Of a stretch of 64,000 nt of DNA, positions 8,115 to 63,248 are shown piece by piece (positions within the stretch are counted from its first letter, which is position 1; the number at the start of each line of letters is the position of its first letter). Source of the DNA: Arenicola marina (Eukaryota; Annelida; Polychaeta; Arenicolidae); contig OZ025255.1 of assembly GCA_964019135.1 (NCBI GenBank), positions 25,087,708 to 25,151,707 of the forward strand, read 5' to 3'. A program made the translations under genes and the position numbers. The notes below the pieces were generated by a model. That model did not search any database. It was not told the DNA's origin and saw only the letters and a program-made list of their open reading frames with translations.

Positions 8115-9884
8115 GGCTAAAGTAACACTAGACCATTTTAATGATACCAAACTTATGTTTGTACTGCAATGTTATCCTTTTGACTTTGACTTTTTGACTT
8201 ATGACTTTAGTCAGCGGTAAATATGGTAGGCCTAGTTGTTTTGAAATGACTGTCGATAATCAATATGTGTCAGCGGTACACGATGAGGCCTGTCAGTGGT
8301 AAATAAAAGAAACGAAGACCGCTGGATGATTTGACTGTGGAGGGGAAGGGGGTGTAGGCCTCATGTAGCTGGGGAATGGGACACTATTTCTCTACTCCAG
8401 GTAGGTAGCCAACTCATCGTCCCGTGATATCCAACCGTGTCTTCCCGCTGCTGTAGTTCCATCTGCGAAACCTTTATTACCCTTTATTAAGTCATAAATG
8501 CTGTAGAGTGAGGTTTCTAATTACTGATGCGAAAAAGCAACACTGTGCAATTTTAAATTTGCATATTATGCTTTTTTTTTACCCTAAAACTAAAAAAGTC
8601 AAAATATAAATATGAATGATTCGAATAATTAAATCATCCAAGATTTCTTTTGTCTATATTCCATGCACAGGCACAGTAAATCAACTGATACAGAAGGGTG
8701 GGGGGTCTGTAGGCTTATTAGTAGGCAGTGCAGACCCCCCCCTTCCCCTCTGTGTTAGTCAATTTACTGTGCCTGTGATCCCATGCATGCCAGAGAGTCA
8801 GGCTCTCAGCCTTGCCCATGATACCAATTTACCACAGGTTTTCAACTTAGTGGTAAACGACATCAGTTTGAATGCTTCACGATGCTTTGTTATAAGTAGC
8901 AGTTCGGTGACAGAGTTCTATGGTATCCTGTGATAGATACGTTTGCTACATCACAGCTGAAACAGTGATATTTATTAGGTTTCTGAATTTATAGAATGAA
9001 ACAATCAAGTTTTCTGAAAATTGTGATATATATATTGCTTGGGCTTAGTAATGGCGTGAAAGAGCTCGATATGCAACTTCAATAATAGCAAACTTACATT
9101 TGTACTGCAATGTTATCCCTTTTTAGGACACAAAGAATATTTCTTTATGCCGACAGTCAATTGGCAGCAGACGCACTTTTGATTATCATATAAAATTGTG
9201 AGCTCTATGATTTTCTTCTAAACCTGCTGACAAAAAGCCCCTCATTTGGGTGGGTAAGCAGCACCTGAGTGCCCACCAAATTGAAAATCTACCCACCAAA
9301 ATTGAAACTGCCCACCCATCAGTGGGTCTTTGGCTAATACCCTGCCAGTTATATATAATATGGTAATGGTTATAGAAGCCTTGGCTTTGTAATGTTCCAG
9401 CAGTGGCCACTAGCACTTGCTTAAAAGTTGTAGATGTATAATAGTACTATTTATAGATTGCCAGTAGTAGCAATTTGTGTTTAAAAACTGAAGACACAGC
9501 AATGTAAATGCTATTAGATAGAACAGGAGGGTTGCTGTATAGAATATGATAAAACAGAGGGAGGAGGTAGGGAGACCCTATATGCTATACTCCTTCACCC
9601 CCTCCCTATCTTTTCCATTATATAATCCCATATGCCTGTTCCTCTGCTTGTTTCGCATTGTAAATATGTAGTGAGCAGACTGTAATATTTCATTTAAATT
9701 AATGTCCCATTATTTTTTGTATATTCCATAAAGGATCTCTGGGGCACTCACTCAGTGGGACCCACCCTCTGGCCTCACATTGCATGTGGAATTGGTTACC
9801 AGGTACCACACATTTACGCAGTTAGGTAGCATTTAAATGCAAGATAAATTCCTTGTTCCTTACAGATCTCATGTATCTATATTT
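8115..9884. other. Gene-free stretch with foldback fragments
   Basis: Partial, decayed copies of the 6893-8114 foldback family are recognisable around 8110-8210, 8485-8570 and 9050-9180 (shared pieces include GCAATGTTATCC and CACAAAGAATATTTCT). Around 9215-9350 lies a repeat with CCCACCAAATTGAAAATCTA and TCTTTGGCTAATACC, related to 2440-2510. No coding exon seen. Confidence 0.6.
8666..8777. repeat. 112-bp hairpin element
   Basis: Inverted ends CACAGGCACAGTAAAT and ATTTACTGTGCCTGTG match over 16 bp; inside, GGGGGGTCTG faces CAGACCCCCC. The outer flanks ATTCCATG and ATCCCATG match in 7 of 8 bases, a possible 8-bp target duplication. Likely a miniature transposon. Confidence 0.75.
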
Positions 9885-11446
9885 ACATTGTATCTAAAAC
9901 AAACTTGGATAAGTTTGGCATATGTTCGGGTTTAAAGGTTAATGTAGAAAAAACTAAAGCTGTCTGGCTGGGGAAAAGAGATCCAGAAAGAAAACCTATA
10001 TGTTCGGAGCTGCCAATTTCTTGCGGGGAAGAGTTTACCTTGCTGGGTATCAAATTTTGTGTAAATCTACAAGATATGATTAGCATTAATTATAGCCACA
10101 AGGTAGCGGAATTTGAAAAAGTTTTAACGATATATGGCAAGAGAAATCTCTCTCTAGGAGGGAGAGTGACTGTTGTTAAAGTGATCGCCTTGCCAAAACT
10201 TATCCATGTCTTAACCGTACTTCCAACGCCCGGAAAACAATATATTGATAGAATAAACAATGTCATTCGTAGGTTTGTGTGGAACAACAAAAAACCCAGA
10301 ATATCTCTGAATAGAATGGCCCAATCTGTCGAAAATGGCGGAGTAAACCTGCCTCTAATACAACTGAAGATACAAGCTCTTAAGATAACATGGATACAAA
10401 GACTAATATCCAACGAAGGTTCATGGCAAGAACTCTTCTGTGAGACTATATGCAGTGAACGTCGAATGTGCTGGGAATTGGATCTCCTTTCTTTAAAACA
10501 GTTTACAACGGTATCAAATCCTTTCTGGGCCGAAGTCTTTATGGCATGGTATAAATACAGATCGAGCTTAAATGAGGTGCAAACGGTTTTTGAATATCCA
10601 CTTTGGAACTCGTTCTTTATGAAAAACGATAATCTTCGAAAGCGAAAACATGACCTTATTAGATGTGGCGTGATGTTTATTAATGATCTTGTTGATGACA
10701 ACGGAAATTTATTCGGTTGGGAAACGTTTGTACAGAAACATCATGCAGATCTAAATTTCGTAGACTTTTATAGTTTGATTCATTGTATACCACGCGAATG
10801 GAAAGAGGCGTGTAAAAATGTAAATGTAAAACTACCACATGTACCTTGGGGCTGGACAGCATCTATTTTAAATTCACACCTATGCAAATATGTTCATAGA
10901 AAACTGGTTGGGTCCTTGGATTATCATGTAAAGAATAAAGAAAAGTGGGCAGCAGTGTTTAACGAGCAAATAGATAGCGGCAAATGGAGTCAAATATATA
11001 ATTTACCATTGCACTGTACCATTAATGAAAGTACGAGAAGTTTCCAGTATTTAATCTTACATCGAGCACTTGTGACGAATATTTTTCTTCATAAATGTAA
11101 GTTAAAACCCAATGATAGATGTGATTTTTGCGGAAGCGAACCAGAAACTATAGAACATTTGTTGTTTAGTTGCCGGCATATAAAGCCTTTGTGGTCTCTT
11201 TTGGTACTATGGTTAAATGAGTCATGCAATATATCCTTACCAGTCGATTTTCAGTCATGTATATTGGGTGAACGTAAGACCTTATACAGCCAACTCATTA
11301 ATCATGTATTTTTAATAACTAAGAAGTATATATATAGATGTAAATGGATGAATATAGCTCCGAATTTTATCGGTATTAAAAACACTATTATATATCATTA
11401 TAAATTAGAAAAGTACACGTCCAAAATCTCACATTGTATCTAAAAC
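9885..11446 (+). mobile_element. LINE (non-LTR retrotransposon) fragment, L1/Tx1-like
   Basis: One open frame of about 510 codons starts directly after the left repeat, without a real start codon. It enters in the end of the reverse transcriptase domain (GLKVNVEKTKAVWLG), continues through the thumb region (SLGGRVTVVKVIALPKLIHV, later FVWNNKKPRISL and GGVNLPLI), and holds a zinc-knuckle near its end, CDFCGSEPETIEHLLFSC, of the zf-RVT type. The apurinic endonuclease and most RT motifs are missing. A perfect 16-bp direct repeat, ACATTGTATCTAAAAC, lies at 9885-9900 and 11431-11446, as a target duplication would. The stop codon of the frame lies inside the right repeat, so the copy has no 3' UTR and no poly(A). 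The frame is intact, so insertion is probably young. Family assignment (L1/Tx1 clade) is by memory of the C-terminal region. Confidence 0.88.
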
Positions 11447-21235: not shown

Positions 21236-24200
21236 TCACCATCGACCAGACCGGGAACCCACTCGATGACTGGTTCCATACAGACCTTGTGTGGCTAACG
21301 ATATCTCTTCGAGGAAGCTGCACAGAGAGAATAAATATGAGATGTCAATATGAAGCCATGAAGCCATTAACACACGATGCAAGCAAGATACGTTTTATGG
21401 CTTTGTTCGGCGTTGGCATCTTTGAACTGTGCATATATTTTAGCCATTACGTCAAAATGCTGAACGTTCAGTTCAATGCGCTCTGCTCAGGCCGGCCTCA
21501 GCGGCCGGTCAGTGGTTCGAATCCAACCTGAGCAAATGTCTACATTTGCGCAAGATAAAGATTATATATCTCTCTTCAAAAAGAGTGGGGAGTTCCTCCC
21601 GGAAACATAGCTCCTCTTTACCTTCACCCTTCCTATTATCGAGATAGAACCTACAGAATTTAAAGCCCCCTATTAACCCCATCCTCATGTTAGAAAAAAG
21701 TCCCAGCATTTTCCTTTATTTCATTTCGGGCCTACTACATACATGTGTATATCTGCAAGTTCAACCCAATCGACCTTTGACCCACCTCTTCATGTTGTGG
21801 ACGGTGGATCCGCCGAGCACGATCCTGACTCCGGGGGTGGTTCTGTTCATGTTGTACACGGTCAGCGCCTCCTCGTACGTAGCGCCCCCTATGATGAAGA
21901 CAACGATGTCCTGGGGTCTGTCGCTCAGCTGCGAGGTGCCTACGTAGGGGTAGGAGGCTTCCTTCAGCCTGCCCTTGATCAGCTGATCCAGCAGGCTGTA
22001 CAGCAGCGGCTTGTGTTGGCTGTAGATGTTCTCTACGCCCTGTAAATAAGTGACACACTTATATATATACATAACAAGAGCTGAAACGTACGGGGACGAT
22101 TTGATGGTGATTTTACCCATAAAGCGCCTTCCACTGGTTCGGTAACGTTGAATTATGGGTGTCGATCCAGGCGCATGTGTCATTGGGCTTTCAGGAACAT
22201 AAGTCTCCAACAGAACGTGCCGAAGAAAGACGATGACGGGTATACAGGCAACAGTTACTGCTTCGGGTGTTTATTGTGCCTTTATGGATCTCATTGTCAC
22301 CCCCGGGGTGTCTGCTGTACCATTGTCAATGACTCTCATCGTCACCCCCGGGATGTCTGCTGTACCATTGTCAATGACTCTCATCGTCATCCCCGGGATG
22401 TCTGCTGTACCATTGTCAATGACTCTCATCGTCACCCCCGGGATGTCTGCGGTACCATTGTCAATGACTCTCATCGTCACCCCCGGGATGTCTGCTGTAC
22501 CATTGTCAATGACTCTCATCGTCACCCCCGGGATGTCTGCTGTACCATTGTCAATGACTCTCATCGTCACCCCCGGGATGTCTGCTGTACCATTGCCAAT
22601 GAATCTCATCGTCACCCCCGGGATGTCTGCTGTACCATTGTCAATGACTCTCATCGTCACCCCCGGGATGTCTGCTGTACCATTGTCAATGACTCTCATC
22701 GTCACCCCCGGGATGTCTGCTGTACCATTGTCAATGACTCTCATCGTCACCCCCGGGATGTCTGCTGTACCATTGCCAATGAATCTCATCGTCACCCCCG
22801 GGATGTCTGCTGTACCATTGTCAATGACTCTCATCGTCACCCCCGGGATGTCTGCTGTACCATTGTCAATGACTCTCATCGTCACCCCCGGGATGTCTGC
22901 TGTACCATTGTCAATGAATCTCATCGTCACCCCCGGGATGTCTGCTGTACCATTGTCAATGACTCTCATCGTCACCCCCGGGATGTCTGCTGTACCATTG
23001 TCAATGACTCTCATCGTCAGCCCCGGGATGTCTGCTGTACCATTGCCAATGAATCTTATCGTCAGCCCCGGGATGTCTGCTGTACCATTGTCAATGAATC
23101 TCATCGTCACCCCCGGGATTTCTGCTGTACCATTGTCAATGACTCTCATCGTCACCCCCGGGATGTCTGCTGTACCATTGTCAATGACTCTCATCGTCAC
23201 CCCTGGGATGTCTGCTGTACCATTGCCAATGAATCTCATCGTCAGCCCCGGGATGTCTGCTGTACCATTGTCAATGACTCTCATCGTCACCCCCGGGATG
23301 TCTGCTGTACCATTGTCAATGAATCTCATCGTCACCCCCGGGATGTCTGCTGTACCATTGTCAATGACTCTCATCGTCACCCCCGGGATGTCTGCTGTAC
23401 CATTGTCAATGACTCTCATCGTCAGCCACGGGATGTCTGCTGTACCATTGCCAATGAATCTTATCGTCAGCCCCGGGATGTCTGCTGTACCATTGTCAAT
23501 GAATCTCATCGTCACCCCCGGGATTTCTGCTGTACCATTGTCAATGACTCTCATCGTCACCCCCGGGATGTCTGCTGTACCATTGTCAATGACTCTCATC
23601 GTCACCCCTGGGATGTCTGCTGTACCATTGCCAATGAATCTCATCGTCAGCCCCGGGATGTCTGCTGTACCATTGTCAATGACTCTCATCGTCACCCCCG
23701 GGATGTCTGCTGTAACATTGTCAATGACTCTCATCGTCACCCCCGGGATGTCTGCTGTACCATTGTCAAGGACTCTCATCGTCACCCCCGGGATGTCTGC
23801 TGTACCATTGTCAATGACTCTCATCGTCACCCCTGGGATGTCTGCTGTACCATTGTCAATGACTCTCATCGTCACCCCCGGGATGTCTGCTGTACCATTG
23901 TCAATGACTCTCATCGTCACCCACCGGGATGTCTGCTGTACCATTGTCAATGACTCTCATCGTCACCCCCGGGATGTCTGCGGTACCATTGTCAATGAAT
24001 CTCATCGTCACCCCCGGGATGTCTGCGGTACCATTGTCAATGAATCTCATCGTCACCCCCGGGATGTCTGCTGTACCATTGTCAATGAATCTCATCGTCA
24101 CCGCCGGGATTTTTTGCTGTACCATTGTAAATACTGGTTGGCGCGCACCGAGTGACCAGTAGACCATCAAGCCTATGGCACATATTAGGTCACATCATGG

Positions 24201-27200
24201 GGCCTACTAGAAAAACACATTTTACAACAGTAGCATATATTCAGTCGTACCACCAACCGCCGATAGTTTTCAAGGATGAAATAAGGGCCAAACTTGGAGC
24301 TAAGCTAGAGGGAAAGTTTTGCAGTCAAACGCCTACATACGGTCAAGCCGCAATAGCAGTCCGCTCATATTTAAAAGGCCAACAGGATCGGCTACATATA
24401 GGATATATTTATTTATTTATTATTAGACAATGTTTGTATTACGGCCACTTTTCACCAGCCCAACCTATGCCGATAACGTAAGGTGTTCTTGGTTCACAGC
24501 CCTTACCTTTAGGCCCTTAAGGAACTTCTTGGTCATTGCTATGGGTGTGTCGGCTTCGAACAGGTCGCTGCTGCGTACTTTCTGACCGCCGTATTCCAGG
24601 ACAGCCGGAACCATCTGAACACGCAACGGACGGCATTGGAATACAGTCCTCAACTACATACACAGGATCTATTTACTGTTAAAGCTGGGTTTTTTTTCAC
24701 TCACATTGTGATTTTCGATTATTTTTATGATTAACATAGCACAACAGAAAACCTTACAGGCTAAGAATATAAATTTCATTTCCAGCCAAAACATTTTTAA
24801 AGCTTCTTAAGAAAAATATTGTTGCATGAGTAACTTTAATATTGTTCAATTTTGAAAATCTCTTTCGCGGTTTACCTGTTCAGCCCATAGACCCGCAATC
24901 GAGCTTGGCAGATGTAACGGTACATGTAGCCGATAGAATTTGTAAATACTGTATGCAAGCCGACATTACGATTTTAGAGGATGAGTATCAGGTTTTGTTA
25001 TGTTGTCCTTCGTTATTCTGCTATACGTTATTCAGCCTACCTTTTTGAGACGCTCGCTGACGCCCTTCCGCTCGAGGGCTTGCATCAGGCCCGAGATGTC
25101 GTTGTTGCTGTGAGTCTCGTATCTCAACGCGTACAGCATGACCAGCCGCGCCATGTCCATCTCGCGAGACTTCTCACTGGCCAGCAGGCCGCGGATTTTC
25201 TACGAGAAAATGGCATGAATTGGTGAGTTTGGTCGATTCTATGCACGCAAGGGTAAACTAGGCCAAGGAACCTTCCCGGGACGCTGCAGGATGAATGAGT
25301 GAAACATGCTGGTTGCCCGGGCCCGGATTCGAACCCAGAACCTATTGATCTGCGGTCTACTGCGCTAATCACTACACCAGTGAGGCCCAATCACATAACT
25401 CTCGTTGTAATGATAGTTTTTCTTAAAAGGAATCCAGATATGGTCGGCTATTTATAGACCATTATGGGCCATCGGTGTCATGCCCCTAAATGAACAGCAT
25501 TCTCTATGATTGCTTGGTTCTATATTCAGGACATTTTAACCACATTTGCACATATCGCGTCAATGGGAGAAGGAAGGGAGAGTGAAGCCAGGTCCCCGGG
25601 GGTAACCCCCTACTCTTTGTGAAGAAGGACATGGGATCTTTATCCTGCGACCACACAGACATGGCCACATCGGGGCTCGAACCACCGATCCACGTGCCGT
25701 TAGGCCCTCAGGTGATCAGAGCACTCAAGGCGAGGGCTCTAACCCACTGAGCTATCGGGGCGGCCCCGTATACTCCAGGAAACATAACCAAAATGCATAT
25801 TGATACCACACAAGAGCTAATTCGGTCTCGGAAATAAGCCCAGCGCTATCACATCGGTCACGCAAAACCCAGGCACATGTCATACATACCATGAAGAGGA
25901 ATATGTAAAACCATACAAAATATCAGGGGCGTCTCCCATAGGCTGGAACGGAGTCATTTAATTGGCCCATGACGAAAATGCATCAATTGTTTAAGCTCCT
26001 AGGCCTCCTTACCTGGAGCGAGGCGTTGTGGTCGCTCTGACACACGAGTTCCTGTTCACATTCAGACACATCCATCAAGCCGTGCTTGTTGACCAGGCGC
26101 GAGAGCTCCCCGACCACTGTCACGTGCTTGGAGACGGTCCCCGACATCTTCTTGAACTGAGGGTAGTTCTCCACGAACGCCTTTAACAGAGGCGCAGAAA
26201 TCGAGGTTAATACGGTAATCTCAACTTAATCTATTGACGTATCGAAGGACAGCGTGGCTAGCTACCTTCACATTTAGTTCATTGGTGTCAGCGAACCCAA
26301 TTAACATAACGCTAATACAATATAACCTGCTAAAAATAACATCAGATTCTGCACTGAAACGAGCCATATTCACAAATACGTCTATCGAAATCTTTCGTAT
26401 TTTTTTCTTTCAATACGATATCATACATCAATATATAAAATACATATGTGTGTGCTCATCTTGATCCGAAATACAATAATAAAACTGTCGATTATTGATA
26501 ATACATATAGAGACCTTCATATCAGCAATGGATTCCACTTTAGCCTGACTTTCAGATTTTTTCTGAAAGTCTTCCATTAAATCCTTGATATTGCTCCCAA
26601 TCTCTCCAAAGTTGAGGTACATATTCTGGCGACAAGAAACAAATTAGCAATTATAAATATATATTACAGTGTATCTTGCCATTTAAAATGGATCCAAGAT
26701 TGAGGAAGGAGTAATACGTATCATGCTGATCCACCATAAAGTACCCCCATGATAAAATAAATTTATGAAGACCGCTTCAGATATAAATTAGGTTAGTCGA
26801 AGACGTTGTTAAACACAGAGAGAAAAAACATGTGAGGAGTCTATATGGACAATATGTATACTACCCGACACTGCAATGTATATATTGTATAGTTCAATAA
26901 AGAATTTAATAAGAAAAATAGAAGAATCACAACCATTTTTAGTCTTTTGACCCCAACATTTTACAGCAGTACAAAAATCATGTCAACTCGCAGTCCATGT
27001 TTTTGACCACACTTAGAAATTAATCATATGTTCCTTATCACACCACAGAAATACTGCTGAACGTCATTTTCCAAATCCGTGCACACTAAAAGGCAAACAC
27101 TCTTACATTGGCGTAGAATTCATCGTGTTCTGATGACAGCACGACTTCTTGAAGGTCCTTGGAGATGCCTGGGACGTTGGTGAGATTGATTCGATTGTTG

Positions 27201-30200
27201 TTGATGGCTAACAACTCATGAACCATTGCTTGGTACGTCCACTGCAACCAGGAAGTCCATATCATGACGGGGCACACACGACAGATATCGTGTACAACAC
27301 GTACCCCCACTTTATGAAGAACCCTTGATCAGGATTTACGTTGAGAGAACGACATCAGTAAGTGAAGTATGCAATCCTACTATGGGGATGTAGGGGTGAA
27401 ATTTCGGGTGGAATCTCCCACTGTGATCAGCATGTGTGTCGTATTGTTCTACGTGTGGCACCAAGACCGCCCCCCCCCCTCCCTCAACTACTGTCAGTTA
27501 ACAATGCACCAATAATATCGGCCATTGGTTATCCGTATATCACCAATGTCTGCCATTGTTATTCGTATATCACCAATGTCTTCCATTGTTTTCAGTCTAT
27601 CACCAATGTCTTCCATTGTTATCAGTCAATCACTAATGTCTTCCATTGTTATCAGTCTATCAGCAAGATCCCCCAATATTGTCGCTTACCAGTGTATCAC
27701 TAGTATCGTCCACTGTTATCAGTGTATCATTAATGTCTTCCATTGTTATCAGTGAATCACCAATGTCTCCCCATCAGTTTATCACCATTATCGCCAAATT
27801 ACATGTGTATCACCAATATCTGCCCCTGTTACCAGTGTATATCGTCAGTTATCACGTGTATCACCAATATCTGCCCCTGTTACCAGTGTATATCGTCAGT
27901 TATCACGTGTATCACCAATATCTGGCCCTGTTACCAGTGTATATCATCAGTTATCACGTGTATCACCAATATCTGCCCCTGTTACCAGTGTATATCGTCA
28001 GTTATCACGTGTATCACCAATATCTGCCCCTGTTACCAGTGTATATCGTCAGTTATCACGTGTATCACCAATATCTGGCCCTGTTACCAGTGTGTATCGT
28101 CAGTTATCAGCGTGTATCACCAATATCTGCCCCTGTTACCAGTGTATATCGTCATTTATCACGTGTATCACCAATATCTGCCCCTGTTACGAGCGTATAT
28201 CGTCAGTTATCACGTGTATCACCAATATCTGCCCCTGTTACCAGTGTATATCGTCAGTTATCAGGTGTATCACCAATATCTGGCCCTGTTACCAGTGTGT
28301 ATCGTCAGTTATCAGCGTGTATCACCAATATCTGGCCCTGTTACCAGTGTGTATCGTCAGTTATCACGTGTATCACCAATATCTGCCCCTGTTACCAGCG
28401 TATATCGTCAGTTATCACGTGTATCACCAATATCTGCCCCTGTTACCAGCGTATATCGTCAGTTATCACGTGTATCACCAATATCTGCCCCTGTTACCAC
28501 TGTATATCGTCAGTTATCACGTGTATCACCAATATCTGCCCCTGTTACCAGTGCATATCGTCAGTTATCACGTGTATCACCAATATCTGCCCCTGTTACC
28601 AGTGTATATCGTCAGTTATCAGCGTGTATCACCAATATCTGTCCCTGTTACCAGTGTATATCGTCAGTTATCACGTGTATCACCAATATCTGCCCCTGTT
28701 ACCAGTGTATATCGTCAGTTATCAGCGTGTATCACCAATATCTGTCCCTGTTACCAGCGTATATCGTCAGTTATCAGCGTGTATCACCAATATCTGCCCC
28801 TGTTACCAGTGTATATCGTCAGTTATCACGTGTATCACCAATATCTGCCCCTGTTACCAGCGTATATCGTCAGTTATCACGTGTATCACCAATATCTGTC
28901 CCTGTTACCAGTGTATATCGTCAGTTATCACGTGTATCACCAATATCTGCCCCTGTTACCAGCGTATATCGTCAGTTATCACGTGTATCACCAATATCTG
29001 CCCCTGTTACCCGTGTATATCGTCAGTTATCACGTGTATCTCCAATATCTGTCCCTGTTACCAGCGTATATCGTCAGTTATCAGCGTTTATCACCAATAT
29101 CTGCCCCTGTTACCAGTGTATATCGTCAGTTATCACGTGTATCACCAATATCTGTCCCTGTTACCAGTGTATATCGTCAGTTATCAGCGTGTATCACCAA
29201 TATCTGTCCCTGTTACCAGTGTATATCGTCAGTTATCAGCGTGTATCACCAATATCTGCCCCTGTTACCCGTGTATATCGTCATTTATCACGTGTATCTC
29301 CAATATCTGTCCCTGTTACCAGCGTATATCGTCAGTTATCAGCGTGTATCACCAATATCTGCCCCTGTTACCAGTGTATATCGTCAGTTATCACGTGTAT
29401 CACCAATATCTGTCCCTGTTACCAGTGTATATCGTCAGTTATCAGCGTGTATCACCAATATCTGTCCCTGTTACCAGCGTATATCGTCAGTTATCAGCGT
29501 GTATCACCAATATCTGCCCCTGTTAAAAGTGTATATCGTCAGTTATCAGCGTGTATCACCAATATCTGTCCCTGTTACCAGTGTATATCGTCAGTTATCA
29601 GCGTGTATCACCAATATCTGCCCCTGTTACCAGTGTATATCGTCAGTTATCAGCGTGTATCACCAATATCTGCCCCTGTTACCAGTGTATATCGTCAGTT
29701 ATCAGCGTGTATCACCAATATCTGCCCCTGTTACCAGCGTATATCGTCAGTTATCACGTGTATCACCAATATCTGTCCCTGTTACCAGTGTATATCGTCA
29801 GTTATCACGTGTATCACCAATATCTGCCCCTGTTACCAGCGTATATCGTCAGTTATCACGTGTATCACCAATATCTGCCCCTGTTACCAGTGTATATCGT
29901 CAGTTATCACGTGTATCACCAATATCTGCCCCTGTTACCAGTGTATATCGTCAGTTATCAGCGTGTATCACCAATATCTGTCCCTGTTACCAGTGTATAT
30001 CGTCAGTTATCACGTGTATCACCAATATTTGCCCCTGTTACCAGTGTATATCGTCAGTTATCAGCGTGTATCACCAATATCTGTCCCTGTTACCAGTGTA
30101 TATCGTCAGTTATCAGCGTGTATCACCAATATCTGTCCCTGTTACCAGTGTATATCGTCAGTTATCAGCGTGTATCACCAATATCTGTCCCTGTTACCAG

Positions 30201-33200
30201 TGTATATCGTCAGTTATCACGTGTATCACCAATATCTGCCCCTGTTACCAGTGTATATCGTCAGTTATCACGTGTATCACCAATATCTGTCCCTGTTACC
30301 AGTGTATATCGTCAGTTATCACGTGTATCACCAATATCTGCCCCTGTTACCAGTGTATATCGTCAGTTATCACGTGTATCACCAATATCTGTCCCTGTTA
30401 CCAGCGTATATCGTCAGTCATCAGCGTGTATCACCAATATCTGTCCCTGTTACCAGCGTATATCGTCAGTCATCAGCGTGTATCACCAGTATCTGTCCCT
30501 GTTACCAGCGTATATCGTCAGTTATCAGCGTGTATCACCAATATCTGCCCCTGTTACCAGTGTATATCGTCAGTTATCAGCGTGTATCACCAATATCTGT
30601 CCCTGTTACCAGCGTACATCGTCAGTTATCAGCGTGTATCACCAATATCTGTCCCTGTTACCAGTGTATATCGTCAGTTATCAGCGTGTATCACCAATAT
30701 CTGCCCCTGTTACCAGCGTATATCGTCAGTTATCAGCGTGTATCACCAATATCTGCCCCTGTTACCAGTGTATATCGTCAGTTACCAGCGTGTACCACCA
30801 ATATCTGCCCCTGTTACCAGTGTATATCGTCAGTTATCAGCGTGTATCACCAATATCTGTCCCTGTTACCAGCGTATATCGTCAGTTATCAGCGTGTATC
30901 ACCAATATCTGTCCCTGTTACCAGTGTATATCGTCAGTTACCAGCGTGTACCACCAATATCTGCCCCTGTTACCAGTGTATTTCGTCGTTATCAGCGTGT
31001 ATCACCAATATCTGGCCCTGTTACCAATGTATTTCGTCGTTATCAGCGTGTATCACCAATATCTGGCCCTGTTACCAGCGTATATCGTCAGTTACCAGCA
31101 TGTATCACCAATATTTGTCCCGGTTACCAGCGTATATCGTCAGTTATCAGCGTGTATCACCAATATCTGCCCCTGTTACCAGTGTATATCGTCAGTTATC
31201 ACTTGTATCACCAATATCTGTCCCTGTAACCAGTGAATATCGTCAGTTGCCGGCGTGTATCACAAATATCTGTCCCTGTTACAAGTGTTTACCAGAATGC
31301 CCCACCTCTACCAGTATATAATCAGGATACTGTTATTACCTGATTCAGAAGCGGCGTGACGGCGTCATCCCGGCGGTCCAGGATCAGTAAAACGGGAGGC
31401 ACATCAGTCTTCCGGAAGTCAAACAGCGCCGCCTCGCGTGAGATTACCTGCTGCTCAAAGTCAAAAGCGAAGAGATGATTAAATTCTTGCTCACGTGCAA
31501 ATTTATTTACAATGGAATGCGAAAATGTATAGTTTGTACAATCGACTAGAAATGCATTATGTTTGTATCATTTGCAACACTGTAGTACAAAAGCCTCGTG
31601 CCTATACTACGAGGAGACTGATAATTCGCCCGATACGATAAATCGCATTAGGTTTATTATAGTCTCACGCTGCTCCGTAGCTCCCTGCCTGTCTGAATGA
31701 ATAAAAAAATGATTCGGTGTGTTAGATGATACCGGTACACTGGACAGCACTTGAACTAAATTGCATATGGACCAATCAACCTCACAGCCGTTTACCGAAA
31801 TAAAGGATTTGTAAAACACTCCACGCTACAAGGACGAGATTAGGCCGCGAGATCGAGCTCTCTCACAATGACATGAATGACCGGGAGACACGATTAAACC
31901 GACATAACGGGCATCGATTTCCTTAACTAAAACAATATAGTTATAAGTTGTTTTTGGTCGTTTATTATGAAGACATCATCTGAGTCTTTATTTAGTGTCG
32001 TTTTTTGAATTGTTCAAAGATGTCATATATCAGCTTCCTTACCCGGACATTGTCAGCCAATCTCTTAGCCATTTCAGATGAATTTTGAAAGCGGATCATG
32101 GGACATTTCTTTAAAGATAGAAGCAGTGATGTGAGGCCTTGCACTGTTCTCTGAAGGGACAGCTGAGACCAGTTTCTCCCCTGGGAAAAACAAAAGCATA
32201 TATGCCAATGTTAAAATGTACACCTTATCCGCCCCACTTAAGTAGTCAAGATAAGTCCATCAATATGAGTGAAACATAATTGGGTAACATATAAATACAT
32301 GTAAATGATTGATTAACACAGACAGATTTAATCGATTCTGATCAGGAAAATTGTACCATGTTGAAAAAAACCTTGAAAATGTAGAAGATTAAGTTGAGCA
32401 AAGGGCTAGTTTGACTAAATCAATGATGGTTTGCCAAATTAACTGCTCATTCGATAAGAGAATAACTGACCCCAGATTGCTGGAAACTATGTTTATTTTT
32501 AGTTATTTATTTTTAATATATAATATATTAAATATTACTTTACATCATTTACTCAGCTCTATTGTTTCTGGCACTCTTTTGTATATAGTATGACTTTTAC
32601 ATTATTCAAATCTGCACAGACACAAAGCTTGTTTTCATACCTGAGAACAACCAACAATATTGAGCGAAAACAAGTGCGGACTGACAGCAACATAATCCCC
32701 GTAAAACTCCTGCAAAGGAAATACAAGCATCTATATATGGCTATATGTAGCAATACATCACAATTCAACACCAATATGTTATAATATGACACTTTAAATT
32801 AGTATATCTCTATGGCATGCAGTTAAGGGCTTGTACAATATGACACTTTGGATTCTATCTCTATGCCATGGGCTTAAACAATATGATCAACTGCTGTAGA
32901 TATAAATGAATGATAACAAACTGAACAGCCATAACATCTGTAAACATAAGAATGATTTGCTTTGTAAAGTATGCTGAAAGAGGTCTCGATCATCAGCTTG
33001 GGTGAGGACTTTCACATCAATCCGGGCCCCAGTACACTAACCTGTACTTCTCTGATCATGTCCTGATTAGCAGCTTCAGCAAGAAGTTTCACATCAATAC
33101 ATGCCCCAGTACACTAACCTGTACTTCTCTGACCATGTCCTGATTAGCAGCTTCAGCAAGAAGTTTCACATCAATACATGCCCTAGTACACTAACCTGTA

Positions 33201-34759
33201 CTTCTCTGACCACCTCTTGATCATCAGCTTCTGCGAGAACTTTCACATCTTGCTTGCTGATGACATTGCTGAAATCTGTAAAACGTACATGTTACCATGG
33301 CTACCAGTAACTAAGAGGCAGTTATTGTCTAATCATAAATGTGCGGATTTTAATATAACCTAGTAGCATAGTTACATAAAATACAACTACAAGTAACTGA
33401 CCTAAATATATGTGTTATTAGTGAAGACTACATAATAGAGCAGCTAAGCCACAATGAAACAGATTTAATGTGTCCTATAAATAACAGTAAGTAAAATAAG
33501 TCCTCCTTTGACATGCAAAGTTATATTGTAGCTGCTAAAAAAGCCAACATACATATGTAATATAATCCATATTTAGGTGCACGCAGCTCCTGTGCCAGCA
33601 GGTCTACATTTTCCTTAGTAGGTCTCAAGAAACAGATGCACTTTAGGTGTTTCATGGTCTCACGACTGGTAGAGTCAATTCTTTCAAATAGGTAGACTTC
33701 TTTCTGCAGTATCTCTGATTGCGCATAAACCATGCTAACAACACTGGTCTGTAAAAAACAAAAAATTTTAAATATCACATTGATATGTATGGCTACTGTG
33801 ATCATCTGTAAAAGACTTTTTAACACAAGTCTTCACACATGGAAGTGCAATAAGCATTAGAGATTGTACACTTAATTAACCTTTGCAATGCAAGTTAGAA
33901 ATTGTAGGTAACTAGGTCTATAGGTGCTAGGTATCAGAAACTAATAATCTCATAACATTTGTATATATGTAATTACTTAAAGGGTTTCCTTCAAATAAAA
34001 TAGCATGTATGAGATCCTCCTTGTTGCATTTGTAGGGAGAGGGTGAAGTCTATCATCATCATTGGCACTCTTAGAGTGGCAGGGAATGGTTCAGAAAGCA
34101 GCAGTTGATGGTGTAACAACATATAGCTGCTGTCTTAAACTAACTGGGCCAGTGAGTAACTTGATACTGTGTAGGCTTGACGAGACAGTAGTTCTACAAT
34201 GCCGGGATAATTGGCTTCATTGGCTGGATGGGATTATGATAGGCTAGAGAGTGGAGGAGTGACCACTGATCCCTTGGTCGATCAAATAGGTGGAGGGTTA
34301 CAGTAACCAGGAAGGGGAGTCCCAAGAGACAGGCTTGAACTTGGTTTATATATTAGTCACACCAGTGTATAAGTACCCCTCGATAGCAAGGAAAAAAGGT
34401 GTGGCAACAGCTTCTAGGGGTCAAGTTAGGCTGTGGTCTGAGAAACTTTTAAACCCTATGCCCCATACTACTGTCTGTACTATAGCTCTGTCACAGAGCC
34501 TTGTTACATCTGTTAACAACGCCACAAGGTTGGGGCTATCTGTACTATATCCATGTTGACAATGACATTATGACTCATGATGTTTATCAACATTACAAGA
34601 CTTGTCACCTGTCATAAAAGACATAAGACATAACTGAGTTCACGATTTACGATTTCCAGTCAGTACCGTTTCTTTGTCCATCAGCAATATCTTCATACCA
34701 GGACCACAGTCCTCTATCATTTTCGATATATACATCTTTACGGCTAAAACGACGTTCAT
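21236..34759 (-). CDS. VPS45: VPS45, Sec1/Munc18-family protein
   Basis: Thirteen coding exons on the minus strand, listed 5' to 3': 34759-34667, 33748-33553, 33275-33196, 32709-32641, 32180-32043, 31450-31340, 27241-27107, 26625-26515, 26180-26013, 25199-25041, 24614-24507, 22039-21786, 21317-21236. Total 567 aa against 570 in human. VPS45 binds the syntaxin-type SNAREs of the trans-Golgi and endosome and promotes SNARE assembly. Start [20 protein letters not shown], then [119 protein letters not shown] and [12 protein letters not shown] all follow the family order. The final exon (AGC after the junction, then [18 protein letters not shown]) fits the family C-terminus; reading through exon 12 would instead end in WVKGRLG. 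Intron 3 carries decayed copies of the exon 3 end, intron 6 and intron 11 carry large minisatellites. Head-to-head with SMC5. Confidence 0.97.
21491..21690 (+). mobile_element. tRNA-derived SINE, second family
   Basis: A tRNA B-box-like GGTTCGAATCC near 21513 is followed by a body with GATAAAGATTATATATCTCT, GGGGAGTTCCTCCCGGA and CATAGCTCCTC, shared with 42926-43105 and 43503-43680. It lies in VPS45 intron 12 in antisense orientation. Confidence 0.7.
22290..24125. repeat. 45-bp minisatellite in VPS45 intron 11
   Basis: About 40 copies of a 45-bp unit containing CTCATCGTCACCCCCGGGAT and GCTGTACCATTGTCAATGA. Copies differ mainly at a few positions (CCC/GCC, GTC/GCC, ACT/AAT), and blocks of several variant units recur (23010-23230 resembles 23410-23650), which points to duplication of multi-unit segments. 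Three frames remain open for 559-640 codons only because the unit is a multiple of three and lacks stops. It lies in the last-but-one intron and does not contain a splice site of VPS45. Confidence 0.97.
25212..25390 (-). mobile_element. tRNA-derived SINE, third family
   Basis: Read on the minus strand, a tRNA-like head with GGTGTAGTGATTAGCGCAG (A box) and GGTTCGAATCC-like GGGTTCGAATCC (B box), followed by a non-tRNA body. The same head occurs at 37182. The cloverleaf is not preserved, so this is not a tRNA gene. It lies in VPS45 intron 9, about 13 bp upstream of the exon 10 acceptor. Confidence 0.75.
25508..25767 (-). mobile_element. tRNA-derived SINE, first family, near full length
   Basis: On the minus strand: head GGCCGCCCCGATAGCTCAGT, GGATCGGTGGTTCGAGCCCC (B box), body with GCAGGATAAAGATCCCATGT and GGGGACCTGGCTTCACTCT, tail ending TCCTGAATATAGAACCAAGC. 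Full head-to-tail match with 40362 and 42363. It lies in VPS45 intron 9. Confidence 0.85.
27538..27790. repeat. 30-bp repeat beside the 51-bp array
   Basis: About eight diverged units of the form TATCACCAATGTCTTCCATT followed by GTTATCAGTC. It runs into the 51/52-bp array, whose unit starts with a 30-bp piece of the same pattern. Confidence 0.85.
27791..31300. repeat. 51/52-bp minisatellite in VPS45 intron 6
   Basis: About 68 copies, filling most of intron 6. Each has GTGTATCACCAATATCTGCC, CCTGTTACCAGTGTATATCG and TCAGTTATC, then either ACGTG (51 bp) or AGCGTG (52 bp). The two monomer lengths are interspersed, so reading frames shift repeatedly and long open frames (up to 1192 codons) arise in all three forward frames. 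The 51-bp form contains CACGTG; the 52-bp form does not. Confidence 0.97.
32978..33195 (-). repeat. 77-bp repeat of the VPS45 exon 3 end and donor
   Basis: On the minus strand, directly after exon 3. Two full 77-bp units (33195-33119, 33118-33042) and one decayed partial copy follow. Each unit starts with the donor GTTAGTGTAC and ends with a mutated copy of the exon end (GATGTGAAACTTCTTGCTGA ... GTCAGAGAAGTACAG), so GAAGTACAG|GTTAGTG occurs three times in a row. Reading on from the true exon meets TGA after ten codons. Confidence 0.93.
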
Positions 34760-34997
34760 TGTGTCGATTTCTTGAACTGCTCGATGCTGTGAAAAACTTG
34801 TACAGTCGGTTGTCTGTTTGTCATTTACAAGACGTCTTATTATCGCTCAGGAATCTGCAGCGCCACCTAGCGAATGATAAAGTGGGTGATGTTTCGTCTA
34901 CGGCTCCGATATCGTACCAGCGTGCAGCACATCTCACACTCGCGATTCTGCCGCGAAAAGTAGAAAAGTAAACAGAAAGAGAAATTAATTGTGTACA
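34760..34997. promoter_or_regulatory. Bidirectional VPS45/SMC5 promoter
   Basis: Only 238 bp separate the two divergent start codons, so both 5' leaders and the shared promoter must fit here unless a 5' untranslated exon exists. It holds a CTCF-like core on the minus strand at about 34859-34873 (TCGCTAGGTGGCGCTG) and an E2F-like CCGCGAAA at 34951-34958. No TATA box is obvious. Motif calls are by eye. Confidence 0.6.
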
Positions 34998-54347
<19,350 letters not shown>

Positions 54348-54354
<7 letters not shown>

Positions 54355-55832: not shown

Positions 55833-58391
55833 TCAGGATAACAGCTTTGCCAGTTTTCCCGACTTGTGCAGAGTCTGAACTTCAGTGCCTCCACCGACGC
55901 ACTTGCCCCTAATAAACACCCGAGGAACCTGAAAATAAAAAATGCACGCCTTGTGTTAATATTGCACAGCCAACAGCTGTTCAAAATAAAACTGAACATT
56001 GTATAAAGACTAAATTACCTTGAATTTGCATGACCAAATTACATGCAGGGTTCTGTGTGTAAACTGTATTCACTAAGCTTTTTGGCCAATAGTATATTGA
56101 TGCCTCTATAATATATAACCTTCCACCTAGATCTAATAGGTGATTACAATATATCAATATCCGTGTACTACTTTCTAACATCCGCGTCGTCGCACCAAGG
56201 AAGTGAACAAAGGCCCATATACGGTATCTGTTACTGGTGACACACACCCGGATATGTAGGCCCACAGTGTAGGGGGGGGGGGGTACCCCCATCTGAATCG
56301 CGAATCCCCAAGAATGAGGGAGAGCAATATCGAATCTCCAAGATAATGGCATTTTAAAGCTGGGCGCCAAAAAAAAAATGCCATAATGGTGATAAATCGC
56401 GAATATCGAAGAATTCGATATCGCGGGGACCGGAAAAGGTACCCCCCACCTCCCTTCCCCCAATGGTGTCAGCCACGCGCTGTGGCCACCGCCCAGAACG
56501 TTCTGCGACTGGCACAATATCGATCGGAGCAGACAGCGTTACATACAATACATACATGTACCGTATGGTCCAATGGTAGACCTAAACAAGCAGTGCTTGT
56601 GCTACGGTTACCAGGCCTGTCACACGGTCTAGCGGCACACTTACATGCTGCTTAGACATGTTAGAGGCAGGCCTGGTATTATAAGTGCTACTTATAAGGT
56701 AACTAGAGTTGTGTGGCTTTTAGACCGGCAAAAATTGGACAGGGGGTGGCGAAAGCCAGGGTCGAATCTTCGCTGCCAGGGGGCATTGCGAGCCCAGTTC
56801 AACAAATTAAACGCGGTCCGCTCCCAACTTGGATATGTCGCGTGGCCACACGGTGTGCCTTTACTGCGAGCCGTGCCGTGCCTTGTGCCGTGCATGCTTG
56901 GGGGCCAGGCACCAGTCAAGGGCGGATCTAGAGAGGGGGGGGGGGGGGGTAGGGGGGTTGCAACCCTCCCCATTGGGAACTGGAACATATACTGTACAAG
57001 TCTGGTTCTCCGAGCACCCACCTACCCCCACGCCCAATCACAATCGCCCCCCGCCTTTTTGCAAATTCCTAGATCCGTCCCTGGATACCCCATATATATT
57101 CCATAATTTTGAGGAAAGCACATATATAGGCTTTGGCGCAAGTGCCCCCAGGCAAGCCCGCTTCTCTAGGGGCACAACGGTAACAATGTTAAAATCCTTT
57201 GACGTTAGTAGGGAATCGACTGTAGCTTTTATTATAATGCGGGCGCGTACAATAATAGTGCTTACGTATTCTATATACCTTGTTCTATCTTCTGACATCA
57301 AGAAAGTGTGTCAACACTAGATTGTTCCAGTCATATTTTCGCGAACAAATGTTGGAGCATGCGACTTTTCCCTACCAACCGCCATGTATATGCAGCGCCA
57401 CCTGGCGAATCCCGCCACCATTTGAACCATATGTAGCCTGGGTCCCAAACTTTGTAACAGTCAATGACCTGTGAAAGAGGGCGCTGCTGTTGTCGTTAAG
57501 TTCAAAGTGAGCGACTGACAAGGCCCTCTAGCGGAGAGTCATATGCTAACGGAGAGGAGGAACCAACTCGCATTCACAGGTACCGACATCCGCCAAAAAC
57601 AAATATGGCGGATGGCTGGTCGGGAACAGTTGTGTGCTCCAACATTTCTTCGCGAAAATATAATCGAAACAACCTAGTGTCGACAGACTTTTTTGATCTC
57701 AGATGATAGAACAAGGTATATATAAAACGTTAGCACTATTATTGTACGCGCCCGCATTATAATAAAAGCTACAGTCGATTCCTTACTAACGTCGAAGGAT
57801 TTTAACATTGTTACCGTTGTGCCCCTGGAGAAGCGGGCTTGCCTGGGGGCACTTGCGCCAAATATAGGCTATATCTGAATAAACTGAAGAGCTCCTGCCT
57901 GATATATTTACATAGCCCCGTCGACACGGCGGTCGAGGCACAGTGTGAAACTGTACATTTGCTCTCAGATGGCGCAGGCCACGGTGTGGTATGACGTTTT
58001 CGTCACTATGACGTTTTGGGTCCTAACAGACGTTAAGGTAGCTGACATGTCTGGTAAAGGCTTTAATACAAATTCACATGACTAAATAAAATAAGGAAAG
58101 TGCGAATGAGCAATCAGTGGTCCACCTTACATAATTATATATAGATCTATGTAAATATATATCACTTACAGTACGTCCTCCGGTGAGCTTCGCGAGGTAA
58201 TCCTGAATAGCACCACAATCCGACCGGTCTCCAATCTCCACAACTTCGTATTCCTCAGGGTCCAGCTCTCTTCCTATGTAAGGTTTCAGGACGTCCTTTG
58301 CCAGGGCGCAGTAGCTACAGGATGATTTAGCAAACAGTACCACTCTCTTCCCCGCAATTTTAGCATCCACCAGTTGTTTCACGTCCCCCAT
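55833..58391 (-). CDS. GLRX: Glutaredoxin
   Basis: Two coding exons on the minus strand, 58391-58170 and 55928-55833, phase 0, 105 aa; human GLRX has 106. Small thiol-disulfide oxidoreductase that uses glutathione. Active site CSYC in FAKSSCSYCALAKDVL (residues near 23-26), the cis-proline TVP in TGGRTVPRVFIRGKCVGGG exactly at the exon junction, and the glutathione-binding GGGTE, ending HKSGKLAKLLS. The CSYC (not CPYC) site is the form found in vertebrate GLRX2, where it can bind an iron-sulfur cluster, whereas IQDYLAKLTGGRTVPRVFI is closer to cytosolic GLRX. No mitochondrial transit peptide is seen from this ATG, though an upstream coding exon cannot be excluded. The intron holds a MITE and many low-complexity runs. 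Confidence 0.93.
57124..57870. mobile_element. Foldback MITE with 9-bp target duplication
   Basis: A 729-bp element at 57133-57861, in the glutaredoxin intron, with terminal inverted repeats of about 245 bp at roughly 90 percent identity. Ends read TTGGCGCAAGTGCCCCCAGG. It is flanked by a perfect 9-bp direct repeat ATATAGGCT (57124-57132, 57862-57870). Long TIRs and 9-bp duplications are typical of Mutator-like elements. The centre (about 57380-57615) is unique and holds a CTCF-like GCAGCGCCACCTGGCG. No transposase. Confidence 0.88.
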
Positions 58392-59426
58392 GTTTGTAAC
58401 GCCGCGGGTGCTCGCTGTCCCCCCCGTGGTGACTGTGGGTATATAATGATCCGAGTCAGCAAGCGAGATACTGACAAGTCTTCTGCTATATTACTGCTCA
58501 GTACCAGTCTCGTCTTTGCTGTACTGTAGTGTAGGCTCCGAAATCCAAATGCTATATCGGCTCCGAGCGGCAAATACTGAGATGTATAACTGACTGTGGC
58601 TAGTCTATATTTAAACAGTGAGTCACAAGTCCGGTCACCAGAAATTATGTCTGAGGTTTACAGCCTGCACTACAATACAGTGTTCCTGGTTATCCGCTTA
58701 TATATAACATGACTTTCGCTCAGTCACTGTGAGTGGCTTTTGGCAAAAAATATGCCTATGGCTCGCTTGCATGACTGTGTGTGCGACGTCACGCCTACCT
58801 TGCGTGCAGGGCCCGATTGGGAAATATACCAGGACACCAGTGAGTAACCAAGGAACTGAAAGGTCAAGGTCGTTCGAATGACGTGATTTGAACCTTGAAC
58901 TGGGTGCGTTATGATGGTTTATATCTGGGACGTCCGAGGCTTGTGGTAGTGGGGGGGGGGGAGTTTCGTCTTCTCAATCGGTGTTGGTCCCCGACTTCGC
59001 ACTTATTGTCCCCCATCGCCGTTGCACTCGACGCTACATTAGGATCAGGGGCGGTTGCAACGACGATGAGAGAGGAATAAGGCAGAGACATAAACATATA
59101 ATTTGGTCTGAGACCTCGCAAATGCTCCCCAGGCACATGCAGCGAGAAAGATAAAAAACTAAATTATTTCTCCACGTCACAGCTAGAAAACTGGATACAA
59201 TGGGTAATGATAATACATACTGTGTGAAGACTACCCCAGACTGGCTTTACATTATTAATCAATGTTTTGACACAAAGAATTAATTAAGTTAAATTACCAA
59301 ACTCGAATCATTGTCTATCTTATTTAGTTTCTAAATGATATATATGGGCCTAATTGACGTTTATTGTTTTCTTCAATGTCTTGAAGCAACACAATATGCA
59401 AATAGATGTATAATAAATAGAAAATC

Positions 59427-61497: not shown

Positions 61498-63248
61498 TTA
61501 ATCATTCCTACCAGCGAGGCCGACCAGCAGACCAATGACGTCATTTCCGTGTGTCCCGGTTTTGCCCTGGCATCGCGGGCATTTTTTACACCGCGGGCAT
61601 TTACAGTGACACTTGTTGTAGAGACAGTCATTGGGTCGCCGGCAACACATCGTCACGCCAACGCTATGACGGGGAACAGTGCAGGCTGTGAAAGGAAGCA
61701 GCAGGTTATAATGATATAGAATTACCCAGTGCGGCGGATCCAAGGTTGGGGAGGAGGGCGGGGGCTAGGGTACTTAACCAGAGATTATGTAAGATACTAC
61801 ATTTTTTTTCGATGACTTTTAGGAGGCAAAATACCGTTTGCCATGCAAAATGAAAATCATCTGACATGTGGACCGCGCTCTCCCCCCGGTCGTTAAAACA
61901 CTGAGATGGATCCCCCAGTCACCCCCTACCCGCCCGGTCGGAAGTTTTCAGAGCGCCGAAATCCACCCTTAATTCTCACAAGTTGTTTCCAATGACCACC
62001 CCCTTTCCATTCGTAGACCCCCCCCCCCCCTGTAACCCAAGTAGTTACGTTAGTACCTGAGGAATATGTCGCCATACATATAATTTGGCGGCTTTCTTTC
62101 TCATTTCCTTGTCTAGCCTGTCTACGCCTTCAGAAAGGAATGATGGTGTGAGTAACAGGGAACATTAACGGTCAGATAACACTACATTGACTCTATATGG
62201 GTAATTGGCTTTCTCGCACTCGCGGCCCACTGATTGTGACACCAGGTCCGAGTTAAACCCATCCCGCACTCTGTGACTGGGTACTGTGGCCCATTGTGAC
62301 AGCAGGTCCGAGTTAAACCCATCCCGCACTCTGTGACTGGGTACTGTGGCCCATTGTGACACCAGGTCAGAGTTAAACCCATCCCGCACTCTGTGACTGG
62401 GTACTGTGGCCCATTGTGACACTAGGTCCGAGTTAAACCCATCCCGCACTCTGTGACTGGGTACTGTGGCCCATTGTGACACCAGGTCCGAGTTAAACCC
62501 ATCCCGCACTCTGTGACTGGGTACTGTGGCCCATTGTGACACTAGGTCCGAGTTAAACCCATCCCGCACTCTGTGACTGGGTACTGTGGCCCATTGTGAC
62601 ACCAGGTCCGAGTTAAACCCATCCCGCACTCTGTGACTGGGTACTGTGGCCCATTGTGACACCAGGTCAGAGTTAAACCCATCCCGCACTCTGTGACTGG
62701 GTACTGTGGCCCATTGTGACACTAGGTCCGAGTTAAACCCATCCCGCACTCTGTGACTGGGTACTGTGGCCCATTGTGACACCAGGTCAGAGATAAACCA
62801 TCCCGCACTCCGCGACTGGGTATTTTCGACAAAAAGTTTGATTGTCACGTCCCAGGGTGCAATTTTACTGAGGTTTGTGCGATAAAATGCATATGACATG
62901 GCTTCTCGTATGAGATGGGTTCATCTTAGCACAAATATCGCACTCGAACCCATGCAATATGCATAACTTCTTGTAGAATGTACGTTATCACAATTTGAAC
63001 ATTTCGACCGATTTGTCTCCACACGAAGAAAGATATCTTAAAGGCGTGTATTTCTTGCTCAGCTAGTACATTTGTAAAGAAAAAAATCACATGCATGAAA
63101 ATTTCAGAATGAGCAGATAATTGCATGCCTATGAAGACCATATTGCTGTAACGAGCGGTCAAATAATCCTCACCTTGGAGTCTGGCCGAAGCTCGGACAC
63201 AAATGGTATAGCCCTGGAGTTATACAGCCACAATTGATGGTCAGACAT
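61498..63248 (-). CDS. Tentative cysteine-rich 107-aa protein, unidentified
   Basis: A three-exon model on the minus strand: 63248-63174, 62117-62057, 61685-61498, with phases 0, 0 and 1 that fit and a total of 324 nt. Exon A starts MSDHQLWLYNSRAIPFVSEL and ends at AAG|GTGAGG. Exon B (ARQGNEKESRQIICMATYSS) has a weak acceptor (GTAGACAG) and the donor GTACTA. Exon C is the best supported: a strong acceptor (CTTCCTTTCACAG), ten cysteines in about 40 residues (CTVP, VTMCCRRPNDCLYNKCHCKC, PRCKKCPRCQ), then GNDVIGLLVGLAG and a stop, with AATAAA downstream. No signal peptide at this start. The cysteine spacing suggests metal binding or disulfides; I recognise no family and assign no function. An alternative frame through exon B (VDRLDKEMRKKAAKLYVW) looks more protein-like but does not join exon C in phase. 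Other 5' exons are possible. Confidence 0.35.
62232..62815. repeat. 60-bp minisatellite
   Basis: Ten units of 60 bp, each with GCCCATTGTGACACCAGGTC, GAGTTAAACCCATCCCGCAC and TCTGTGACTGGGTACTGTG. On the minus strand one frame is open over 244 codons with 20-residue periods; several differences between units are silent in that frame (TCG/TCT, CTG/CTA) but one is V/L, so coding is not established. In the model above it lies in the first intron of the cysteine-rich gene. Confidence 0.95.

Follow-up and report, generated by a model that had tools for sequence, protein, structure and literature searches.

What brings four unrelated minisatellites, lying in two neighbouring genes, onto splice donors? 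The question is raised by a DNA stretch of 64,000 nucleotides, analysed at its full length and hereafter called the window, to which the coordinates below refer. To answer it, one has to consider how the arrays sit on their exons, how often conserved exons elsewhere in the same genome carry such arrays at either end, and whether the anatomy of the arrays points to the way they arose.

Minisatellites across splice donors in SMC5 and VPS45

Two genes of the window are concerned. SMC5, a name backed by homology, occupies 34998..54354 on the forward strand and has 24 coding exons, through which the frame is open throughout. VPS45 lies on the reverse strand (21786..34759, the former being the least extent at its 3' end); its exons 1-10 could be modelled in frame, and beyond exon 10 there is another exon at 22039-21786, with one more likely near 24.6 kb. 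The identity of VPS45 is supported by Sec1 (PF00995) matches to four window exons of this gene other than exon 3, and by homologs showing 72-85% identity among the best 120 listed.

TRF arrays placed on these in-frame gene models bear out the starting point of the original prediction, namely that four unrelated arrays, with units of 37, 45, 51 and 77 bp, cover donors of the two genes. The 37-bp array (39376..39574, forward strand, 5.3 copies) includes the final 13 bp of SMC5 exon 6 (39227..39388, forward strand) and extends across its donor, CACTG|GTACGT. The sole match of the stretch 39360-39600, which contains it, in the 867-Mb genome is itself. The 51-bp array (44045..46579, forward strand) is by far longer, with about 50 copies (49.7), and begins within exon 13 (44007..44068, forward strand), the final 24 bp of which are inside the array. 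According to column counts, the copy predicted to be used reads CTCAA|GTAAG, most others read CTCA|GTAAG and a few have no GT. The 45-bp array (52819..53564, forward strand, 16.6 copies) starts at CCAG|GTAAGG, the donor of exon 22 (52643..52822, forward strand), so that only the final 4 bp of this exon belong to it. Finally, the 77-bp array (33010..33249, reverse strand, 3.1 copies) runs across the donor of VPS45 exon 3 (33196..33275, reverse strand), an in-frame exon with donor gttagtgt and whose final 54 bp form the array start.

In all four cases the first unit holds the donor, after positions 39388, 44068 and 52822 on the forward strand and 33196 on the reverse strand, and the frames joined at this first donor by predicted splicing are open in the gene models. 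The G and the T of the donor are retained in 0.94-1.00 of the copies of each of the four arrays, as column counts show. In SMC5, arrays cross 3 of the 23 donors and none of the 23 acceptors; in VPS45, one donor is crossed and no acceptor placed in the model falls within any TRF array of the window. The further claim that the units start at the GT has to be abandoned, as the phase in which a unit is cut is a choice and not a property of the DNA. The arrays themselves start inside the exon, at 13, 24, 4 and 54 bp from the donor (in the order described above).

Other arrays of the window do start inside introns, as had been proposed for contrast. A 23-bp array (49801..50595, forward strand) is wholly intronic in SMC5 and begins 77 bp past the exon-19 donor. 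A 51-bp array in a VPS45 intron (27805..31288, reverse strand) has its start 52 bp downstream of the donor at 31340, and a third array is located between VPS45 exons (22289-24132), as judged from TRF and the gene model.

Several additional repeats and open frames were observed in the window. A 39-bp array at its left edge (2-584) continues over about 6 kb of upstream sequence, divided into two blocks (L003, 3245-7497 and 7880-9590). At 62233-62822, where there is no gene model, a 60-bp array of 9.9 copies has a consensus unit with CACCAG|GTCCGAGT. A dispersed element, SINE-like by eye and headed by a tRNA-like sequence (ccccgatagctcagtg...), is found in several introns, in the window at about 25560-25770 (reverse strand), 40360-40580, 42360-42610 and 51140-51360. 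By eye, an open frame of 531 aa at 9848-11443 (forward strand) resembles the C-terminal region of a reverse transcriptase of LINE type, Cys/His motif included, and an open frame at 58074-58490 (reverse strand) contains a CSYC motif that we take to be glutaredoxin-like.

Origin of the window

The original prediction supposed a lancelet genome. The two proteins point elsewhere. VPS45 (exons 1-10) shares 84% identity with Capitella and 76% with Branchiostoma, and its tree groups it with Capitella, Lamellibrachia and one further sequence with a support of 100/99, Owenia standing apart. SMC5 is 52% identical to the protein of Haliotis and 41% identical to that of Branchiostoma. In the SMC5 tree, where the deeper forks are weak, it pairs with one further sequence (100/99), outside 22 mollusc rows and apart from the annelid Owenia. 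From these protein sequences, an annelid is likely to be the best reading of the window's origin.

A sample of conserved exons

To locate conserved exons of this genome, Pfam families were used that cover CCT chaperonins, Sec1, kinesins and myosins. The resulting sample, which is not the whole genome, comprises 144 homology-anchored exons in about 60 gene clusters (37 CCT, 13 Sec1, 56 kinesin and 38 myosin). Four of the 144 are exons of the window's own VPS45, none of which is array-crossed. Splice sites were predicted from homology and from matrices derived from the 23 SMC5 donors and acceptors. Rows left out were 7 of 133 for kinesins and 1 of 49 for CCT (internal stops, weak, odd length or intronless), 23 of 77 for myosins plus 14 further myosin rows, as well as 64 kinesin, 11 CCT and 19 PF00133 rows. 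Three stretches with a flank shorter than 200 bp (L110, L124, L131) and five kinesin rows on ciliate-like contigs (L047, L048, L050, L051, L056) were dropped. The kinesin matches on the contigs in question (C390, C504, C536) are interrupted by several TAG and TAA codons in frame. In some ciliates, TAG and TAA are read as glutamine, and these contigs are likely to represent a contaminant or a commensal in the assembly. Among the myosins, G000:C4:367768-371306 gives four successive matches to one stretch of the head (positions 590-640), probably alternative exons.

It was in the CCT loci that arrays crossing donors first came to light, and the comparison of donors with acceptors was fixed ahead of the Sec1, kinesin and myosin data. 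The exact distance cut-offs were chosen afterwards and were then varied over six settings. As a background, 64 arrays with a mean unit of 54 bp in 161,283 bp outside the anchored exons lead to an expectation of 3.1 first-unit crossings per 144 points; this density is that of the 1.5-kb flanks, unannotated exons included. The flanks of about 260 bp around the exons limited the detection of arrays starting deep in introns.

Excess of arrays at donors

First units of TRF arrays cross 17 of the 144 donors and 5 of the 144 acceptors, where a uniform background would give 3.1 in each case. Donors are thus crossed 5.5 times as often as expected (Poisson P 3.5e-8) and acceptors 1.6 times, the latter figure being within chance (P 0.20). 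The difference between the two kinds of boundary is itself marked in the complete set of families (binomial p 0.008; McNemar one-sided 0.0038), and a count by gene leads to the same result, donor crossings outnumbering acceptor crossings in 11 genes and the reverse occurring in 1 (p 0.0032). Without the CCT family, 11 of 107 donors and 3 of 107 acceptors are crossed against 2.3 expected (donor P 3.0e-5; McNemar one-sided 0.011). None of the 13 Sec1 donors is crossed. As for the position of the array starts with respect to the donor, 14 lie in the last 60 bp of the exon, 7 in the first 0-29 bp of the intron, and 4 in each of the intervals 30-59, 60-119 and 120-179 bp.

Background array starts favour G+C-rich flanks (48 starts, p 0.036). 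A G+C-matched expectation, which rests on these 48 starts and was computed for donors only, amounts to 4.8 crossings; the donor excess is then 3.5-fold (P 1.3e-5, and P 0.0012 without CCT). G+C content as the whole cause was rejected, its factor of 1.55 being set against an excess of 5.5-fold. The mean G+C of exon starts and exon ends is equal (0.555 and 0.557). In this sample of 144 exons, the claim that the arrays are placed on donors beyond chance is upheld, also after G+C matching.

It might be argued that such counts are produced by the procedure, either because a repeat finder extends intronic arrays into exons, because the anchoring is biased towards repeated exons, or because of assembly errors. 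HMM anchoring could indeed favour exons with repeated ends, and a few of the exon overlaps measure merely 4-8 bp. However, 14 donors and 5 acceptors remain when an exon overlap of at least 10 bp is required, an anchoring bias would affect acceptors too, and the copies of the arrays carry distinct variants. We regard an artefact as highly improbable. Across the six settings, which modified score, copies, exon overlap and dropped loci, 13-17 donors were crossed against 4-5 acceptors.

The acceptor crossings are real. They are found at L023 (two arrays), L053, for which no acceptor was called, L054 and L102, the last two holding exons with arrays at both ends. On the donor side, three of the 17 cases have weak donors (L121, L033, L129). 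At L017 and L121 the exon part is longer than one unit, so that the true donor probably lies one unit upstream of the one called. At L129, a donor-crossing array of 85 bp, the exon end reads CTCCAG|GCAAGT, which would make it a tandemly repeated start of a GC-AG intron. Overall, the counts support, in line with the original prediction, a general factor that places arrays at donors. Since some arrays cross acceptors, donors are not alone in being affected.

Anatomy of the donor arrays

If the duplications had been initiated by microhomology of the real donor with a donor-like motif further downstream, units would span from the donor to the decoy donor and the array start would be put at the donor consensus. 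Only 4 of 21 donor arrays (17 sampled and 4 in the window) fit this expectation: the array at 52819, L007, L033 and L115 start 4-8 bp before the GT, in the exon part of the consensus. The 17 other arrays hold 13-87 bp of exon and, in the 16 sampled arrays that were compared, the place taken by the donor inside the unit agrees with a uniform distribution (KS p=0.54), that is, with a random phase. Microhomology of this kind thus appears very unlikely, and phasing on the GT, which had been proposed as a general trait, does not hold either.

The units of 20 donor arrays (16 sampled, 4 in the window) measure 28-93 bp. No frame bias is seen, 5 of these 20 lengths being multiples of three, and selection for in-frame units was rejected on this basis. 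In the same 20 arrays, conservation at the GT of the copies does not exceed that of the other columns (mean mid-rank 0.54). A cruder fuzzy matching had suggested high GT retention, which the column-based count did not confirm. Selection keeping the decoy donors was likewise rejected, considering this mid-rank and the low values of the two longest arrays of the window (0.12 and 0.27).

These properties bear on the idea that selection has acted as a filter and nothing else. Duplications would then arise uniformly; those internal to exons or at acceptors would be purged, and those at donors would survive thanks to the first donor. The asymmetry of 17 donors to 5 acceptors is in favour of such a filter, and both the lack of frame bias and the free drift of the decoy donors fit the tolerance that it assumes. 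Yet a filter only removes arrays. It cannot push their density at donors above the uniform background, where a 5.5-fold excess is seen (3.5-fold when G+C-matched), and the acceptor crossings do not fall short of that background either (5 versus 3.1 expected). As a full explanation, a filter, one of the causes envisaged in the original prediction, is unlikely.

The first unit might have been expected to differ from the following ones. No sign of this was found, the first unit being more diverged in 8 of 19 arrays (p=0.40), and an older or separately evolving first copy was rejected. In five arrays (L102, L054, L033, L084, L129) the first unit is identical to the consensus, as in young arrays. 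Most arrays look young, their copies being a few per cent diverged. Large open-frame values were also considered as a sign of arrays and rejected, as exons with such values occur with no array nearby.

A different type of evidence comes from the sequence that follows the donor. Of the 17 sampled donor arrays, L121 was excluded beforehand and six were skipped (five for a short intron part, one for a weak donor), leaving 10 arrays for comparison. Set against 99 donors that carry no array, the intron part of their first unit is rich in G (mean rank 0.71, p=0.01). This signal is driven by five of the 10, and at least two of the other five are C-rich. Runs of three G amount to 1.6 near crossed donors against 0.40 near the others (p=0.001), a count in which later copies of short units could be included. 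Such features would be expected if mutation were targeted to donors by co-transcriptional R-loops, by G-run structures or by forks stalled at the junctions, a situation in which selection would be unneeded. The donor excess, seen in the pooled families, without CCT and after G+C matching, also agrees with targeting. On the other side, half of the comparable arrays lack this enrichment, and in the window no G-run directly follows the donor of the arrays at 44045 and 52819. Targeted mutation without selection seems to us rather doubtful; the R-loop idea of the original prediction finds a weak echo in the G-rich intron starts, a signal carried by five arrays.

A model for the birth of the arrays

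Considering these data, we favour, as moderately probable, a model in which exon-end tandem duplications have grown into minisatellites, being tolerated thanks to the first donor and seeded more often near donors. In a first step, a short segment made of the exon end, the donor and the intron start would be duplicated in tandem. The true exon end and its donor would stay in the first copy. If the first donor is used, the later copies are all intronic, and the array could expand and drift without constraint. Use of the first donor in splicing is suggested by the open reading frames only. Tolerance of this kind may explain why the arrays survive, and it is with tolerance that the random phase, the lack of frame bias and the unconstrained decoy donors fit. 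Seeding would in addition be locally raised at exon-end and intron-start DNA; we infer this second component because tolerance, like any filter, cannot by itself exceed the background. Base composition and G-runs are weak leads as to its nature.

A stronger version may also be envisaged. In it, an ongoing donor-directed duplication process would have seeded minisatellites at about one of every eight exon ends in the sample, which is 3.5- to 5.5-fold over background, and independently of the lancelet cases discussed below. We hold this version as tentative, short of probable. If it were true, splice-donor DNA would be a general hotspot of minisatellite birth, visible where minisatellites are abundant.

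Relation to mirages and to intron gain

Tandem repeats across exon-intron boundaries are known under the name of 'mirages'. The portions consulted of two papers report them in amphioxus, in Adh3, in the globins BflGb6 and BflGb9, in troponin C and in PGBD5, with units of 10-72 bp in Adh3 and of about 150-160 bp in the globins; these texts state that mirages leave splicing undisturbed and that Adh3 is somatically unstable (PMC3087553, PMC3902484). The arrays described here share with them, as far as those portions go, the minisatellite-like repeats spanning boundaries and the many copies carrying splice signals. In the present genome, a repeat lies over an exon-intron boundary in the four window arrays and at 17 of 144 donors and 5 of 144 acceptors, and the splice signal recurs in many copies. 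The class was named in cephalochordates, which is not part of its definition, and the present case, being annelid-like, lies outside that group. Two more differences are to be noted: 17 of the 144 sampled exons carry such an array at the donor, and donors are favoured here whereas the globin and PGBD5 papers, in the sections consulted, report both boundaries.

Intron gain by tandem duplication of AG|GT segments is a second related phenomenon. It corresponds to the Rogers model, cited in the available part of PMC3087553 and also treated in that of PMC2395259, and cases are reported in potato (PMC4974935) and in Drosophila (PMC2891723), and also in Cryptococcus. There, as here, a segment with splice signals is duplicated in tandem. 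In contrast, the present arrays lengthen existing introns at existing donors. No additional intron, equipped with a donor and an acceptor of its own, is seen at the four window arrays, where the flanking exons join in frame over one intron via the first donor. In human segmental-duplication genes, internal tandem repeats, or minisatellite variation, at exon-intron boundaries have been reported in PMC2812944, a study that sought copy-number variation between paralogs and that, in the portion consulted, gives neither a density excess nor a comparison of donors with acceptors. The consulted sections of an amphioxus huntingtin paper mention tandem repeats with no junction case, and those of an earthworm metallothionein paper describe minisatellites within intron 1, again with no junction case. 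In the openly licensed literature searched, as far as its texts were available, we found neither junction minisatellites in annelids or molluscs nor a comparison of array density between donors and acceptors. Thus, as far as this literature goes, the kind of structure was already known, while the phylum, the prevalence (17 of 144) and the donor excess are new.

Concluding remarks

If the pattern were true genome-wide, exon-intron junctions would be birthplaces of minisatellites, and not mere locations for them, in a phylum far from the lancelets. What had been single-gene curiosities would become a countable process, testable with any chromosome-level annotation. The arrays also offer a natural experiment on donor choice, with as many as about 50 nearly identical donors following one another, the first of which would be needed to keep the protein. 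Finally, should the pattern hold across the genome, such arrays may provide raw material for the lengthening of introns and for new introns.
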